From NCBI GenBank assembly GCA_001723855.1, contig MCBC01000168.1, positions 1 through 5,333 on the forward strand: a DNA stretch of 5,333 nt. The letters run 5' to 3'. This DNA is from Candidatus Altarchaeales archaeon WOR_SM1_86-2 (GTDB lineage: Archaea > Altiarchaeota > Altiarchaeia > IMC4 > MCBC01). This document shows positions 138 to 5,333 of the stretch, piece after piece. Both the position numbers and the translations under genes were made by a program. The number at the start of each line of letters is the position of its first letter. Positions within the stretch are counted from its first letter, which is position 1. The notes under the pieces were generated by a model. That model searched no databases, had not been told where the DNA came from, and saw only the letters and a list, made by a program, of their open reading frames with translations.

Positions 138-1157
138 ATGACAAGAGTATTGCCCGGAGTTGAGATAGAGGTTGTAAAGGAGATCGTTCCACAGCAATTG
201 AACCCGTCAGGTGTTGTGGGAATGATAGGGACCACGGAAAGAGGGCCTTTAATGGAGCCCGTGCATGTAGGTTCTTATAAAGAATTTACTGAAAAGTTTG
301 GGTCAGGTACGGAGTATTCTCTGACCCGCGATGCGAAACTGGCTTTTCAGAATGGTGTTTATGAGATAGTGGTTGTTGGCGTTTCGGGTGCCGGAGGCGC
401 TAAAGCATCTTTGGCATTGAAGAATAAAGAGGGTAAGGAAGCGGTTAAATTAGAAGCAAAATCTGAAGGCGACTTTGGCAATGATATTTCCATTGAAGTT
501 GAAGCGATGGAAGAGGTGGAAGATTCCGTAAGATTGATGGTAACCGACGGCAAAACTATTGAGGCGTATGAGAATCTGGTTATGGATCCGGAAAGTGATA
601 AATACCTGGTTGATCATGTAAACAAAAGTTCCACGTTGATCAACGCAGCAGATCTGGGTTTAAAGGTAAAATCTCCAAAAAACAACCCAGCCAAGGTTAA
701 AGCAAAATTAAGCGGCGGTGCTCGAGGCAAGGAGCCGTCAAAGAAAGATTATGAAGATGCGCTTGAAAAACTTGAATCCGAGCCGGATGTTGATATAGTA
801 TTGGCATGTGATGTTTCCGACCCTGCAATACATGCACTGATCGACGCCCACTCCAAGAACATGAGCAAGGATGCAAAAAATAGAATAGGGATTGGCACGG
901 TGAGTAAAGGCGAATCAATCAAGGATATCGTAAAAAGAACGGATGTTTTAAGCACCGACCGGTTTATCCTTGTGGCACCTTATGGGAACGCAGGTGCGGT
1001 CGCTGGCTTAATCAGCAATTTGAACTACTATGAGTCCCCGACGTTTAAAGCAATCACCGGACATCGAGGAACACTACTCTCCTGCAGAGCTGACACAGCT
1101 TTTAAAAGCAGGCATACTGGCATTGGAGGTTCAGCGCGGCAGGGGAATAATAGTTGA
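138..1157 (+). CDS. Contractile tail sheath protein, N-terminal part (frame broken near 1060)
   Basis: Sheath subunits polymerise around the tail tube and contract to drive it through a target envelope. Seen: residues 1-50 have the usual opening (LPGVEIEVV, then GMIGTTERGP and a VGSYKEFTEKFG element). Residues 105-165 carry the variable outer domain, with the EAKSEGDFGNDISIEV motif and ENLVMDPESDKYL. GGARG at 193-197 matches the family GGxDG loop, and YYESPTFKAITG at 297-308 leads into the conserved C-terminal domain. From about position 1060 homology continues in the next frame (1060-1491); the last 31 residues here are out-of-frame sequence ending at the TGA at 1155-1157. Joined, the two parts give about 451 residues, normal for a sheath. 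The ATG at 138 sits in an A-rich leader without Shine-Dalgarno sequence and fits the family N-terminus. The break may be a real mutation, an assembly error or recoding; the first two are more likely. Confidence 0.9.
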   Translation: MTRVLPGVEIEVVKEIVPQQLNPSGVVGMIGTTERGPLMEPVHVGSYKEFTEKFGSGTEYSLTRDAKLAFQNGVYEIVVVGVSGAGGAKASLALKNKEGKEAVKLEAKSEGDFGNDISIEVEAMEEVEDSVRLMVTDGKTIEAYENLVMDPESDKYLVDHVNKSSTLINAADLGLKVKSPKNNPAKVKAKLSGGARGKEPSKKDYEDALEKLESEPDVDIVLACDVSDPAIHALIDAHSKNMSKDAKNRIGIGTVSKGESIKDIVKRTDVLSTDRFILVAPYGNAGAVAGLISNLNYYESPTFKAITGHRGTLLSCRADTAFKSRHTGIGGSARQGNNS

Positions 1158-1491
1158 AAAAGGCATTTCGACGAGCAAGGAACAGATAAGCGTTACGAGA
1201 GTGGCGGATCATGCTGTCAGGGGCGTAAAGAATATAAGCGATAACTTTATAGGAACGTTAAACAGCCCCACCGGAAGATCTGCTTTAAAGGAAAAAATAA
1301 CGGAATTTTTCATCCGCATGGAAAACGAGGGCTCAATTGTCCCGAGCACGGATTTAAAGGAGCCTTCATTTGTGGTCGATGTGTACTCATCAGAGCTTGA
1401 TTTTGCCCAGGGGATCGTGAGAGTGGATATTGCGGTGCGACCCGTGAGGGCGATTGATTACATATACGCGACAATATTGGTGGAAGCATAA
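1030..1491 (+). CDS. Contractile tail sheath protein, C-terminal part (shifted frame)
   Basis: This frame holds the C-terminal domain of the same sheath. Homology begins at about 1060 (DIEEHYSPAELTQLL), not at the ATG at 1030. The first ten residues after that ATG are an out-of-frame reading of the end of the N-terminal part. Recognisable family elements are GILALEVQRGRGIIVEKGIS, ISVTRVADHAVRGVKNI, GRSALKEKITEFF, VDVYSSELDFAQGIVRVDIA, and RPVRAIDYIYATI at the end. These form the interlocking core of assembled sheaths, including the C-terminal strand that augments a neighbouring subunit, so the N-terminal part alone should not assemble. The shift relative to the first part is frame 0 to frame +1. 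A few residues expected between ITG and DIEEHY appear to be missing, which suggests a small deletion rather than a single-base slip. Stop TAA at 1489-1491 is followed by T6. Confidence 0.88.
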   Translation: MSPRRLKQSPDIEEHYSPAELTQLLKAGILALEVQRGRGIIVEKGISTSKEQISVTRVADHAVRGVKNISDNFIGTLNSPTGRSALKEKITEFFIRMENEGSIVPSTDLKEPSFVVDVYSSELDFAQGIVRVDIAVRPVRAIDYIYATILVEA

Positions 1492-1528: not shown

Positions 1529-1711
1529 ATGGCGGCAACAATATTATCTGCAAGCGGGAGTAAAGTAACAATTGACGGGAGCCAGATAGAAGGGCTTCAG
1601 TCAATTGAATATAAATACAGCAGGAGTCGGAAGGACATTGAAGCGGTGGGAACTGATGAAAGAATCGGCGTGGATTACGGGCTGAAGGTGGTTACAGGGA
1701 CCACTGCTTAA
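1529..1711 (+). CDS. Tail tube protein, N-terminal part (ends at premature TAA TAA)
   Basis: Tail tube subunits stack as rings to form the inner conduit that the sheath drives forward. Seen: ILSASGSKVTIDGSQIEG, then LQSIEYKYSRSRKDIEAVG, DERIGVDYGLKVVTG. This is the N-terminal half of XkdM-type tail tube proteins of contractile tails. The frame closes at TAA 1709-1711, after 60 residues and only seven residues past LKVV. The other half follows in the next frame (from about 1704). The tube is expected directly after the sheath, as here. The family usually runs to about 130-150 residues; the two parts total about 120, so roughly 10-20 residues around the break are probably missing. The ATG at 1529 matches the family start and has no Shine-Dalgarno sequence. 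Confidence 0.85.
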   Translation: MAATILSASGSKVTIDGSQIEGLQSIEYKYSRSRKDIEAVGTDERIGVDYGLKVVTGTTA

Positions 1712-1886
1712 TAAGTCAACGGAGGATGCGAAGTTCCAGATTGTAGCGGAGTTGAAGAAAGGAAATGTTATAAGAAAGGCGACTTTTGACGATTGCTGGC
1801 TCGATGACAAAAGTTTCGGTATGGATGCCAACGGTGTTGGAATGAGCACCTATTCTTTTTCGGCAACGAGAGTTAGAGAAGAATGA
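1704..1886 (+). CDS. Tail tube protein, C-terminal part (shifted frame, no start codon)
   Basis: Seen: in frame 0 the sequence reads LLNKSTEDAKFQIVAELKKG, then ATFDDCWLDDKSFGMDANGV and STYSFSATRVREE before TGA at 1884-1886. Known: KFQIVAELKKG and DDKSFxMDANGVGxxxYSFxATRxREE are the usual C-terminal pattern of XkdM-like tube proteins. No plausible start codon precedes it, so as read it could not be translated alone. It must have been continuous with the frame starting at 1529, or be reached by recoding. The left limit is approximate, since the frame stays open for some codons upstream. Sequence on both sides of the break is well conserved, so the lesion is recent, an assembly error, or a site where ribosomes change frame. 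The shift (+1) is in the same direction as in the sheath. Confidence 0.8.
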   Translation: MLNKSTEDAKFQIVAELKKGNVIRKATFDDCWLDDKSFGMDANGVGMSTYSFSATRVREE

Positions 1887-1946: not shown

Positions 1947-2327
1947 ATGCCTTACCAAAAAATGAGAAAACTTACAAAGGGGGATATATTGAAGGGAAAG
2001 GATAGAAGAGAAAACATACATCTGGATGGTTACGATGCTGATGTTGTGATAAGACCATTGACCGACGGGGAGTTGACAAGTGTTTTCGGGGTGATAGGGA
2101 ATATTCCGTTCAAGGACGATGGAACGATAGACGCCGGCAAGATGGATGTTAAAAGAAATTTTGATGCATTAACGCTTGCTGCGTCGATGGGGCTGGTGGA
2201 GCCCGAACTCACGGTTGAAGAGGTTAAAGAGATGAAATTCGGGGTTCCGGAGTTTATCGGCACAAAGGTACTTGAGATCAGCGGGATTACTTCCGGCGGC
2301 GGCGCTAAAAAAAAAGGATTGAAATAG
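1947..2327 (+). CDS. Tail assembly chaperone, short (pre-frameshift) product
   Basis: Position (after tube, before tape measure) and the frameshift architecture identify this as the gpG-like tail assembly chaperone. Such chaperones coat the tape measure and recruit tube subunits, but are absent from the finished tail. Seen: KLTKGDILKGKDRRENIHLD near the start, VVIRPLTDGELTSVFGVIG, then a helical segment (FDALTLAASMGL, TVEEVKEM) and VLEISGITSGGGAKKKGLK at the end, 126 residues. VxIRPLTDGE is the most family-like element. The second ATG at 1962 (MRKLTKGDI) is an alternative start that clears the upstream hairpin and may be the true one. The gene ends ten bases after a run of nine A, and the -1 frame beyond is open for 68 codons. 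Chaperone role is inferred from context and architecture more than from motifs. Confidence 0.78.
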   Translation: MPYQKMRKLTKGDILKGKDRRENIHLDGYDADVVIRPLTDGELTSVFGVIGNIPFKDDGTIDAGKMDVKRNFDALTLAASMGLVEPELTVEEVKEMKFGVPEFIGTKVLEISGITSGGGAKKKGLK

Positions 2328-2521
2328 AGAATTTTGTAAGAAGCCCGGAAGGGTTGGAGTTAGCGGCATTATGTATCGATTACAAATATAAATTTACCGG
2401 CAGGATACAGGATCTGACAAGGGACCAGATAAATTTTTTGATGGCGGCTCTCTCATACAGGATAGAGCAAACAAAGCCTTCAGAAGCCGGCATGAGAAAG
2501 ATTATAATCACCGAGGATTGA
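1947..2521 (+). CDS. Tail assembly chaperone, long -1 frameshift fusion (gpGT-like)
   Basis: Reading 1947-2315 in frame 0 and continuing from AGG at 2315 in the -1 frame gives a fusion of 123 + 68 = 191 residues ending at TGA 2519-2521. The extension begins RIEIENFVRSPEGLELAALC and includes FTGRIQDLTRDQINFLMAAL. This helical second domain after an RSPEGLE-type opening is what the T-like part of tail chaperones often looks like. The -1 frame is closed upstream by TAA at 2306-2308, immediately before the A-run, and has no ATG near its start, so independent translation is unlikely. Known: a conserved programmed frameshift at this point of tail operons (lambda G/GT and many contractile tails) makes a minor fusion that binds the tape measure. 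Whether it occurs here, and by ribosomal or transcriptional slippage, is inferred. Confidence 0.72.
2307..2315 (+). other. Slippery A9 site for programmed -1 frameshifting
   Basis: Nine consecutive A follow GCT; frame-0 codons are AAA AAA AAA then GGA TTG AAA TAG. A -1 slip of two Lys-tRNAs (A AAA AAA pattern at 2309-2315) leads into AGG and the 68-codon extension. The -1 frame is blocked by TAA at 2306-2308, so entry is possible only within the run. A nine-A run can also cause RNA polymerase slippage, so either mechanism fits. A 5-pair hairpin with a GGAA tetraloop (2342-2355) lies 26 bases downstream, farther than normal stimulators. Confidence 0.7.
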
Positions 2522-2553: not shown

Positions 2554-4428
2554 ATGGAAGCCATTAATAACCTTATGTTAAAGGTTGAGGAAATAAATAA
2601 GTCCATTATCCCAATCATAAAACTTTCAGCGAAGATCAGGAAACAATTGCTGGATTTAATTCTTGAAAAATTGATTATCCTGCCGGATTTTCCACGGGAA
2701 GAAGAAAAACTTGGGGGAAAAAAAATTTCGCATTACGAAAATTTTTACGAATTTATAAAAAACTTAAACTTCTATTTTTACATAAATATCAAAAGTACCG
2801 GGGAAAATTTCCAAAAATATTTGGAAAGATTTGCAACCGAAAGTTTGTCTGTGTTCAGCAGTTCAGAAATAAGATCAGTCGGCGATTACATAACCAGTGT
2901 TTCTGAAATCTATGAAAAACCCGAGGTTCCCGAATCTAAACCCATCCCGGAATATATACCCGCAATTTCACAGATGCATGAAAAAATCGAGGAGATCTCA
3001 ACAACAATACCTGAATTTATAGTCAGCGAGGTGACCAGAATCTCTGAAATTTCCGAGTTATATGAAAAACCAGAAACCAAAGAAGAAATTCCAGCCCCCG
3101 AATATAAAGCCACAACAATAGCATACACAGCACCCCACATACCAGCAATCTCACAGATGTATGAAAAAATTGAAGAGATCTCAACAACAGTTCCTGAATT
3201 TGTGGTTAGCCAAGCAACAACAATTCCTGAGATCTATGAAAAACTCGGGGTTCCCGAATCTAAACCCATCACGGAATACATACCGGCGATTTCGCAGTTG
3301 TATGAAAAAATTGAAGAGATCTCAACAACAGTTCCTGAATTTATAGTCAACGGGGTAAGCAGAATCTCTGAAATTTCCAAGTTATACGAAAAACCCGAGG
3401 TTCAAGAAGTTCAAGAGAGAATTTCTGTATTAGAACATAAAGTCACTCCAGAATATATGCCAGCGATCTCACAGTTACATGAAAAAATTGAAGAGATCTC
3501 AACAACAGTTCCTGAATTTGTGGTTAGCCAAGTAACTAGTATTTCCGAGGCATATAAAATTCCTGAAGTTCCTGAACCCAAAGTCATTCAAGAATACATA
3601 CCAGCGATTTCAAAGATGCACGAGGAAATTGAAGAAATAACAACAACAGTTCCTGAATTTATAGTCAATGAGGTAAGCAGAATCTCTGAAATTTCCGGGA
3701 TATATGAAAAACCAGAAGTTCCCGAATCTAAAGCCGCCACACCCGCTCATATGCCAGCGATTTCACAGATGCATGAAAAAATTGAAGAGATATCAACAAC
3801 AGTCCCTGAATTTACGGTCAACCAAGTAACCAGCGTTTCTGAGGTATATGAAAAACCAGAAGTTCCCGAATCTAAAGTTCGCCCCGAATACATACCAGCG
3901 ATTTCACAAACAATTTCAAATATCAAAGAAACATTTGAAGAATTAGGGATTATGAATGTAGATTACTTAACAACAATCTCAGAGATGTATGGAATTGCCG
4001 AAAGTCCCGTGATGCCAATCACCGAAACGGCCCGTGGACTAAGTTATGCAACGAACATACCAGAGATTTATGAAAAAATTGAAGTCCTTTCCCATACGAA
4101 TGAATATTCCAGGGAAATTATTGAAAAAACCGCAAGCGCAATAATCGACAGAAGTATGTTAAGCAGTGTCTATGAGCACGATAAAGAAGTAAGGTTCCTG
4201 GATGCTTTAGCATCATTTGAAACAACAAAAATTGATCAAATATTCCCCCTTATCTCCGCACTTACTCCTCAAGCATCCCATTCAACAACAGTTAATAAAG
4301 CGATGCATAACACCTTTAATATAACAATCACCACAAAATCAATAAGTGAAGAGCGGGATCTGAGAGAACTTGGGAAAAAGATAGGCATGATATTAGCCGA
4401 AGAAGTTCGCAGGTCGGGGGGGATATAA
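2554..4428 (+). CDS. Putative tail tape measure protein with alternating internal repeats
   Basis: A 624-residue protein in the slot where tape measure proteins sit, between the frameshifted chaperone and the hub gene. Tape measures run inside the tube and set its length, roughly 1.5 angstrom per residue in known phages, implying a tail near 90-95 nm if the rule holds. Seen: residues 1-110 are an amphipathic helical N-terminal region (KLSAKIRKQLLDLILEKL). Residues 112-134 are a partial repeat, 135-446 are six repeats of IPAISQMHEKIEEISTTVPE type, and 447-510 are degenerate copies. The C-terminus (585-624) reads FNITITTKSISEERDLRELG, then KKIGMILAEEVRRSGGI, a form common at tape measure C-termini. 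No long hydrophobic transmembrane segment and no peptidase motif is visible. The regular proline pattern is unusual for a tape measure, which is normally long helix. A fibre-like structural role cannot be excluded, but the C-terminus and order favour tape measure. Confidence 0.72.
   Translation: MEAINNLMLKVEEINKSIIPIIKLSAKIRKQLLDLILEKLIILPDFPREEEKLGGKKISHYENFYEFIKNLNFYFYINIKSTGENFQKYLERFATESLSVFSSSEIRSVGDYITSVSEIYEKPEVPESKPIPEYIPAISQMHEKIEEISTTIPEFIVSEVTRISEISELYEKPETKEEIPAPEYKATTIAYTAPHIPAISQMYEKIEEISTTVPEFVVSQATTIPEIYEKLGVPESKPITEYIPAISQLYEKIEEISTTVPEFIVNGVSRISEISKLYEKPEVQEVQERISVLEHKVTPEYMPAISQLHEKIEEISTTVPEFVVSQVTSISEAYKIPEVPEPKVIQEYIPAISKMHEEIEEITTTVPEFIVNEVSRISEISGIYEKPEVPESKAATPAHMPAISQMHEKIEEISTTVPEFTVNQVTSVSEVYEKPEVPESKVRPEYIPAISQTISNIKETFEELGIMNVDYLTTISEMYGIAESPVMPITETARGLSYATNIPEIYEKIEVLSHTNEYSREIIEKTASAIIDRSMLSSVYEHDKEVRFLDALASFETTKIDQIFPLISALTPQASHSTTVNKAMHNTFNITITTKSISEERDLRELGKKIGMILAEEVRRSGGI
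2956..3891 (+). repeat. Six in-frame repeats, two types alternating A-B-A-B-A-B
   Basis: Units start at 2956, 3139, 3280, 3457, 3598 and 3751, each with (I/M)PAIS(Q/K). Odd units (A) are 61, 59 and 51 residues and continue FIV(S/N)xV(T/S)RISEIS. Even units (B) are all exactly 47 residues and continue F(V/T)V(S/N)Q(A/V)T. Both share EEI(S/T)TT(I/V)PEF and end in YEKPEVPESK-like sequence. A B-type half unit precedes the array (2887-2955) and worn copies follow to about 4090. Units 2 and 4 share 54 identical bases (3161-3214 and 3479-3532), spaced by 318 bases, exactly one A+B pair. This indicates amplification by pair duplication, probably recent or maintained by recombination. Confidence 0.9.
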
Positions 4429-4500: not shown

Positions 4501-5333
4501 ATGAAAATAGAACTTGACAACATAACTCTTATAAAGCAGACGGAGGAGACAGAAACCGGCAAGATTACAGAAGTGAGAAGTGTCCGGAACATAAATACCC
4601 GTGAAAAGAGAAACATTGTTGAGCATAAAATCCCCGGGATGGAAGGAAATATATTCCAGGATCTTGGAAGAGAGCCGGTGAAAATATCTTTTGAAGGTAC
4701 TTTTCAGGGGGAAAACGCCAAGGAAAATCTTGAGAGAATCAGATCAAAATTTAGGTTAGGAAAAGCGGTGACTTTTGCGTCAGACCTTACGGGCGCATCT
4801 GATGTGACTCATGTTTTGATTGAGGAATTAAGTATTGATGACACAGGGGGCGTGAAAAATGAATATAAATATTCTATTGTTATCAGGGAGTATAAAATTC
4901 CTGTAGAGGAAGAAACCCCCGCTCCTGATCAGGACGATAAAGCAAAAGATGCTGTTGATGATAAAACCGATGATGCCATGGGCACCATAAACTATATAAC
5001 CGGAAAGGTTCTGGATGAAGAGGATAAACCAAAGGCGGATGTTCCCGTGAAAATTACATGGGATAAGGGAGAGATTGCAATAAAAACAAACGAGGGGGGC
5101 ATTTACAGGCAGGATGAACTTGAACCAGGGAAATATATTGTCACCATCGACGCAGAAGGTTATAGGGGCATAGAAAAAGAAGTTATTATAAAACCCGGAA
5201 AAGAGAAAGCAGAGGTGAAAGAGAAGGGGGCTGGAGAGAAACCCAAGGAAGAAGAGAAGCCCACGGAGGAAGAGAAACCCACTGAAGAAGTTGAGGAGAA
5301 ACCCACGGAGGAAGAGAAACCCACTGAAGAAGT
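4501..5333 (+). CDS. Baseplate/hub-type protein with Ig-like domain and repeat tail, partial (runs off right edge)
   Basis: Open for 277 codons from ATG 4501 to the window end with no stop. Residues 1-134 form a beta-rich domain. Its HKIPGMEGNIFQDLGREPVK, then ISFEGTFQG, and later ELSIDD...YKYSIVIREY match the pattern of the Mu gp43/DNA-circularisation N-terminal family, found in contractile tails just after the tape measure. Residues 135-160 are an acidic linker rich in D, K and A. Residues 161-234 resemble a carboxypeptidase regulatory-like (transthyretin/Ig-fold) domain: GKVLDEEDKPKADVPVKI, TNEGGIYRQDELEPGKYIV, then DAEGYRG. From 235 the chain is Glu/Lys/Pro/Thr repeats. Known: in PBSX and related tails this slot holds a LysM baseplate protein that joins hub and tube. 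A LysM domain could lie beyond the edge, with the Ig-like module and repeats as an insertion. Role inferred from order and N-terminal domain; likely cytoplasmic assembly, with no signal peptide. Confidence 0.68.
   Translation, partial: MKIELDNITLIKQTEETETGKITEVRSVRNINTREKRNIVEHKIPGMEGNIFQDLGREPVKISFEGTFQGENAKENLERIRSKFRLGKAVTFASDLTGASDVTHVLIEELSIDDTGGVKNEYKYSIVIREYKIPVEEETPAPDQDDKAKDAVDDKTDDAMGTINYITGKVLDEEDKPKADVPVKITWDKGEIAIKTNEGGIYRQDELEPGKYIVTIDAEGYRGIEKEVIIKPGKEKAEVKEKGAGEKPKEEEKPTEEEKPTEEVEEKPTEEEKPTEE
5254..5333 (+). repeat. 42-bp tandem repeat coding an EKPTEE-rich linker
   Basis: One full 42-base unit (5254-5295, 14 codons, EKPTEEEKPTEEVE) is followed by a second copy (5296-5333) cut by the window edge. 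They differ by a single base (AAG/AAA) over the visible 38. Looser copies of the KPxEEE theme start at about 5242. The encoded chain is highly charged and proline-rich, likely an extended disordered linker. The near-identity of units suggests recent expansion and possible length variation between strains. Confidence 0.85.

Follow-up and report, generated by a model that had tools for sequence, protein, structure and literature searches.

The window analysed here, a stretch of 5,333 nucleotides on contig MCBC01000168.1 of Candidatus Altarchaeales archaeon WOR_SM1_86-2, carries a run of tail genes, all on the forward strand. The first is a tail sheath gene that occurs in two pieces: an N-terminal piece (138..1157; Pfam Phage_sheath_1, E 2.2e-10; PHROG sheath, 3.9e-30) and a C-terminal piece in another frame (1030..1491; Pfam Phage_sheath_1C, 2.4e-7; PHROG sheath, 1.1e-15). 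The reading frame breaks near position 1065, with a small net deletion relative to intact relatives of about 450 aa. This break was seen in an alignment that held both pieces as separate rows, and the best 12 sheath relatives are single ORFs of 448-478 aa. Methanocella paludicola SANAE is among the cultured archaea with a sheath of this family. The tail tube gene is also frame-broken. Its N-terminal piece (1529..1711) was assigned from position and a weak Phage_tube_2 match (E 0.067), and carries the PHROG label 'major head protein' (phrog_9206, 1.4e-4); its C-terminal piece, in the other frame (1749..1886; ELKKGNV...SATRVREE), resembles by eye the C-terminal ends found at the same position in relatives, where an ORF of 130-139 aa is often present. 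Two overlapping open frames of a tail assembly chaperone follow: a G-like first ORF (1947..2327), assigned from a PHROG tail assembly chaperone match (0.0019) and its resemblance by eye to relatives, and a T-like second frame (2309..2521), which is -1 relative to the first. A run of nine A residues (2307..2315) contains an in-frame A_AAA_AAA heptamer at 2309-2315. Beyond the 624-aa ORF that is the subject of this analysis (2554..4428), a hub/Dit-like protein (4501..5333; DUF6046/DNA_circ_N) runs off the window. In addition to a CarboxypepD_reg domain, the hub-like protein has a tail of repeats (periods of 18 and 42 bases) in which K, P, T and E are abundant and which continues past the window end.

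The frames of the chaperone, the 624-aa ORF and the hub-like gene are open, and those of the sheath (138-1491) and tube (1529-1886) are broken; the machine may therefore be dead in this copy. The breaks may mean that this copy is decaying, or they may stem from faulty assembly. The identical 624-aa protein is recorded on three contigs, and its record points to contigs of up to 14.7 kb.

The position of the 624-aa ORF, between the tail assembly chaperone and a hub/Dit-type gene, is the slot of a tape measure protein (TMP). The order sheath-tube-TAC1/TAC2-ORF-hub recurs among archaeal relatives located via the sheath, which comprise 33 loci from a genome collection and two from a viral collection (IMG/VR). 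We took an ORF from this slot in 27 of the 35 loci; that of L002, whose start looks like that of a secreted protein, is doubtful and probably no TMP. The contig or stretch ends before the slot in three loci (L009, L029 and L033), the sequence ends inside the slot ORF or just past its start in three others (L007, L018 and L035), and no ORF of the tape measure kind is present in the slot of L031 and L032. Comparison of the slot proteins revealed a conserved C-terminal motif (4300..4425 in the window; NTFNITI...ERDLRELGKKIGMILAEEVRR). A pattern for this motif matched 23 of the 26 complete slot proteins, a count that omits the four genes interrupted by contig ends (L001, L002, L024 and L027); the other three (L006, L014 and L022) have the motif by eye. 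The pattern occurred in one of 2600 shuffled ends. Because it was written from those very proteins, it is a description of the family and no test of it; the shuffles serve as the control. Likeness among the slot proteins lies mainly in this motif, which probably has a docking role, and the middle of the proteins is hypervariable across archaea.

Profile searches gave further, mixed indications. The ORF matched the PHROG tape measure family phrog_1272 (9.6e-7) over residues 200-533, which are mostly repeats, so that composition may drive the match. No TMP family was matched in the Pfam scan of the ORF. Two Pfam matches above the cut-off, to NPV_P10 (baculovirus P10) and Trimer_CC at residues 282-341 and 185-215, fall inside the repeats of a tail gene and probably reflect coiled-coil resemblance. 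When a profile of the C-terminal motif was searched against the PDB, it returned only weak matches (E 0.3-0.86), one of them to an SPP1 gp17-like tail completion protein. No segment of the ORF is strongly hydrophobic (the best mean over 19 residues is 0.97). The proposal of an earlier note on this DNA that the ORF is a tape measure gene is borne out by position and by the family-wide C-terminal motif. Judging from the gene arrangement, and by analogy with phage tails, the protein would occupy the tube and set its length.

The chaperone junction is a conserved feature of these clusters. An in-frame A_AAA_AAA was present in the first chaperone ORF of all 29 loci compared (the window and 28 of the 35 sheath loci), and lay inside a run of nine A residues in 23 of them; as a control, six A residues in the same frame occurred at 6 of 3056 upstream positions. 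A second conserved open frame overlaps the first at the heptamer, in -1 in 20 loci and in +1 in nine, the frames having been chosen by hand. This pattern suggests that slippage, either ribosomal or transcriptional, is conserved in archaeal tail clusters. In haloarchaeal viruses, -1 frameshifting of the chaperone gene pair has already been inferred (PMC5009743), and the G/GT chaperones of lambda type described in that paper, those of haloarchaeal viruses included, likewise consist of two overlapping ORFs that a frameshift joins close to where the first one ends. The clusters described here differ in that they are read as chromosomal and in that, with A_AAA_AAA in every locus, the second frame may be either -1 or +1.

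Six repeat units make up the core of the 624-aa protein. Their borders were set by seven PAIS anchors, at residues 136, 197, 244, 303, 350, 401 and 448, which confirmed the unit lengths of 61, 47, 59, 47, 51 and 47 residues given in the earlier note. Units 1 (2959..3141), 3 (3283..3459) and 5 (3601..3753) are of the longer, variable A type, and units 2 (3142..3282), 4 (3460..3600) and 6 (3754..3894) are of the 47-residue B type. A B-like half unit ahead of the array (residues 118-135; 2905..2958) and decayed copies behind it (PAISQ, SEMYG and PEIYEK; 3895..4090) had also been described, and both were found by eye. When the protein was matched against itself, the best ungapped diagonal scored 329 at an offset of 106 residues, and the maxima in shuffle controls were 50, 52 and 61 (30, 20 and 60 shuffles, respectively). 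At the DNA level, exact comparison verified the claim of 54 identical bases one A+B pair apart (3161-3214, offset 318). Exact runs at one-unit offsets are also present in the array (44 bases at offset 141 and 41 bases at offset 177); identity is thus not limited to the spacing of an A+B pair.

The alternation of A and B units is real in the window copy, and its statistical force is small at six units. Among the ten possible 3+3 splits of the units, compared on the basis of rounded pS values, the split 135|246 gave the best separation at synonymous sites, which is modest support since one split in ten has to be best. Alternation is further backed by a 3-residue insert in the A units and by longer linkers in units 1 and 3. 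Between the units of the window, dN/dS was 0.12-0.36, values that are rough because dS reaches 2.25.

The earlier note had also suggested that regularly placed prolines make the helix non-continuous. Its separate estimate, that each pair would change tail length by about 15 nm, is arithmetic from 0.15 nm per residue and no finding. The longest proline-free stretch in the repeat region is at most 19 residues. An AlphaFold model of one A-B pair contained four helices of 14-19 residues, interrupted at prolines, with a mean pLDDT of 57.9 and the final 26 residues below 50; the model of the whole protein had helices and a mean pLDDT of 31.6, which is uninformative. Proline spacing and the breaks in this weak pair model both fit the note's suggestion, and the helices may be short ones, interrupted at prolines.

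Relatives of this protein were sought by shared words among about 5.8 billion proteins. The search scored the 7994 candidates with most words in common and returned three: the window's own protein (P0001), P0002 (589 aa) and P0003 (483 aa, from Altiarchaeales). The sole named TMP relative comes from HGW-Altiarchaeales-2. A protein search with residues 470-624 found P0001 and P0002 only, a scan of the genome collection with P0003 found no relative, nor did a scan of viral contigs with the 624-aa ORF, and a TMP profile matched one of 29 genomes of the Altiarchaeal phylum. By the same arithmetic, fully helical proteins of 624, 589 and 483 aa would reach lengths of about 94, 88 and 72 nm.

Comparison with P0002 showed which parts of the protein change. 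P0002 retains both ends, with 92% identity over residues 470-624, and its units run B-A-A-B-hybrid (47, 59, 59, 48 and 50 aa), the two tandem A units being 95% identical. Unit number and order thus differ in the one close relative that was found, which is not the fixed repeat number in all relatives that the earlier note named as a refutation. Strict alternation, which that note also claimed, holds in the window copy but not in P0002, and appears to be peculiar to the former. The tandem A-A arrangement implies that single units duplicate too; together with the hybrid unit, it speaks against the A+B pair as a general duplicating module.

Length differences were examined in eight close pairs of slot proteins. 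P0001 and P0002 differ by indels of 12, 6, 5 and 33 aa inside the array. L025 and L026 differ by 26 aa, which equals the self-repeat offset of L025, and this was the only clean one-unit change among the eight pairs. L008 and L011 (97% identical) differ by indels of 24 and 21 aa, of which the 24-aa piece resembles its neighbour by eye; L021 and L023 differ by indels of 25 and 9 aa with no obvious repeat, and L021 and L022 by a 4-aa indel. The remaining three pairs showed no indel of at least 4 aa. We infer, from units compared as protein sequences, that unit changes are probably caused by recombination between near-identical copies.

Internal repeats were assessed in 30 slot proteins, including the four cut by contig ends. 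Nine had self-repeats above the maximum of 60 shuffles (L001, L008, L010, L014, L025, L028, P0001, P0002 and P0003), L008 by a margin of one score unit, and 21 had none. In L011, a 24-residue self-offset exceeded 20 shuffles and not 60. Repeat offsets varied among the proteins (20, 26, 47-61, 57, 58, 130 and 157 residues). Ruler candidates ranged from 483 to 961 aa in 26 proteins, whose starts were set mechanically, and sheaths were mostly 441-478 aa. In the 928-aa TMP of a Nitrososphaeraceae genome (L028, 3014-5800), the C-terminal motif itself is doubled in tandem at a 57-residue offset.

The most extended array was found in Altiarchaeales WOR_SM1_SCG. On the minus strand of one of its contigs (L037, 5819-7756) lies a TMP-type gene whose ORF, 645 residues or longer, repeats a 20-residue unit (MLGNLTSGISDALGGLDAGG) in tandem at least 26 times and closes with the TMP C-terminal motif (E 3.9e-8). 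On a second contig (L007), genes from sheath to TAC2 are followed by a protein start with the 20-residue unit near the contig end. We read the two as probable ends of one gene split by assembly, apparently broken by the array itself. Against the one-gene reading, the genes beyond the motif on L037 lie on the opposite strand and lack the usual hub gene; the four that were scanned gave a pentapeptide match, a MacB/FtsX match, no match and a weak DUF2460 match. Across the 26 units, the mean difference was 61% at synonymous and 5% at nonsynonymous sites (pN/pS 0.08), and neighbouring units were more alike (47% synonymous difference). The low nonsynonymous difference and the greater likeness of neighbours fit purifying selection combined with local duplication.

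We consider it likely that the 624-aa ORF is the tape measure of a chromosomal contractile injection system (CIS), most likely that of an Altiarchaeale, and that its array changes unit by unit, altering ruler length. In the proposed mechanism, conserved N- and C-terminal ends would flank an array of units of about 50 residues, recombination of near-identical copies would add or remove single units or pairs, and ruler length would shift in steps while the ends stay intact. The explanation that competes most closely is that the repeats expanded neutrally within a coiled-coil spacer and that how many there are has no selected effect on length. The absence of strong repeats from 21 of the 30 slot proteins and the wide variation of repeat offsets would fit such drift, but the units are under purifying selection, most clearly in the 20-residue array, and we regard neutrality as unlikely, though a serious contender.

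The particle of which the earlier note speaks is most likely such a CIS and not a virus tail. The window itself is too short to decide this, and we read the machine as host-owned on the basis of housekeeping genes beside the relatives, the lack of head-gene matches in the ORFs scanned there and the sheath tree. The cluster of L017, whose tube-slot ORF had no family match, continues with a spike (Phage_base_V), a sheath initiator/gp25-like gene, a Baseplate_J-like gene and a further baseplate gene; it is preceded by OAD_beta and YhfC and followed by KARI. L012 has PfkB and an MGMT-type domain before the cluster and NucS about 5 kb after it. Two Nitrososphaeria genomes share a PfkB-family gene immediately upstream of the cluster, on the minus strand in both (8884-9810 in L012 and 8947-9828 in L023), which suggests a common ancestral site. 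Other neighbours include PALP before L001, an acetyl-CoA synthetase-like (AMP-binding) gene before L010, an ammonium transporter and ASST before L004, and Band_7 near L007. Scans of 50 distinct ORFs in the surroundings of nine relatives (L001, L002, L004, L007/L037, L010, L012/L039, L017/L038, L023 and L035) detected no terminase, portal or capsid family; they covered part of the ORFs there, mostly with one library each. An AAA+ ATPase gene is typical of eCIS. The ORFs scanned in L017/L038 and L012/L039 gave no match to one; two large L039 ORFs had no Pfam match. When sheath copies were sought in the genomes of eight relatives, six had one match and two had further weak ones. In the sheath tree, sequences group for the most part by host phylum, and the window shares a clade (support 100/98) with Altiarchaeales WOR_SM1_SCG, whose row is a long branch flagged as unsure.

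That the window derives from an archaeal virus or provirus, with the ORF as an ordinary virus tape measure, is improbable in light of these data. Several features are admittedly phage-like: the slip-site chaperone together with a long TMP, the occurrence of the sheath in two IMG/VR records, sheath and tube frames broken as in a decaying provirus, and a few PHROG head-class labels. Besides phrog_9206 on the window's tube piece, these labels comprise phrog_215, on an L001 ORF that is pilin-like, and phrog_2386 with phrog_4411, both on one ORF of L035 that matches a baseplate protein best. Against a virus stand the head families missing from the 50 scanned ORFs, the housekeeping neighbours with PfkB upstream in both Nitrososphaeria genomes, the grouping of sheaths by host, and a search of 50,697 phage records in which the sheath N-terminal piece had one match, at 25% identity, and the TMP none. 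Contractile phage-tail-like clusters, known as phage-like protein translocation structures, are also described in ANME archaea, including ANME-2d (PMC9012536), and contractile phage-tail-like systems are reported for Methanoperedens (PMC12246660).

It is very improbable that the ORF, instead of being the ruler, encodes an effector that is loaded into the tube and descends from a tape measure, as reported for some actinobacterial CIS. TMP-related CIS effectors have been reported (PMC13277306, PMC11126660), and a middle region that is hypervariable across archaea beside a retained C-terminal motif would suit one, but this is the sole long ORF between chaperone and hub, and an ORF could be taken from the slot in 27 loci, that of L002 being doubtful, with none in L031 and L032. 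Streptomyces Sle1 and Tme are likewise coiled-coil TMP-like CIS proteins; they are reported as effectors (PMC13277306), whereas the window gene fills the ruler slot. The surface fibre or adhesin that the earlier note named as an alternative is scarcely credible, for although the repeats are rich in Pro and Glu, the ORF has a tail-gene position and the C-terminal family motif, and no fibre or adhesin family appears among its Pfam and PHROG matches.

A repeat-built tape measure has a precedent in phage TP901-1, whose ruler bears repeats and whose tail length drops with deleted residues (PMC5099701); the repeats were proposed to ease duplication and deletion and hence change of ruler length (PMC5099701). 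Repeats in phage rulers are therefore known, and repeat change as a route to altered tail length has been proposed. The TP901-1 protein is described as having 11/18-residue aromatic repeats and hydrophobic regions (PMC5099701); by comparison, the window protein is built from two types of unit, 47-61 residues long, lacks a strongly hydrophobic segment and is set in an archaeal contractile system. In the literature searched, which did not extend to preprints, we found no paper joining a tape measure with archaeal contractile systems or an Altiarchaeota virus, and none joining tape measure, transcriptional slippage and contractile injection. Within the scope of these searches, what seems new is the presence in archaeal CIS of repeat-built rulers whose unit types, sizes and numbers vary between relatives.

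Our reading of this locus as the tape measure of an Altiarchaeal CIS leads to a broader proposal, which we advance tentatively and hold at somewhat less than even: that the length of widespread archaeal CIS is set by repeat rulers varying within populations, with their chaperone made by poly-A slippage into either frame in different phyla. Changes in block number would offer an easy route to altered machine length, if the protein acts like phage rulers. The series of ruler lengths beside sheaths of mostly 441-478 aa opens selection on injection-tube length to comparison, and with the Altiarchaeal 20-residue array nature would offer a way to test whether ruler length changes by whole units. If the proposal is true, these host-owned machines would have a tube length that is polymorphic and evolves fast, with the 20-residue repeat ruler of an Altiarchaeale as the extreme case.
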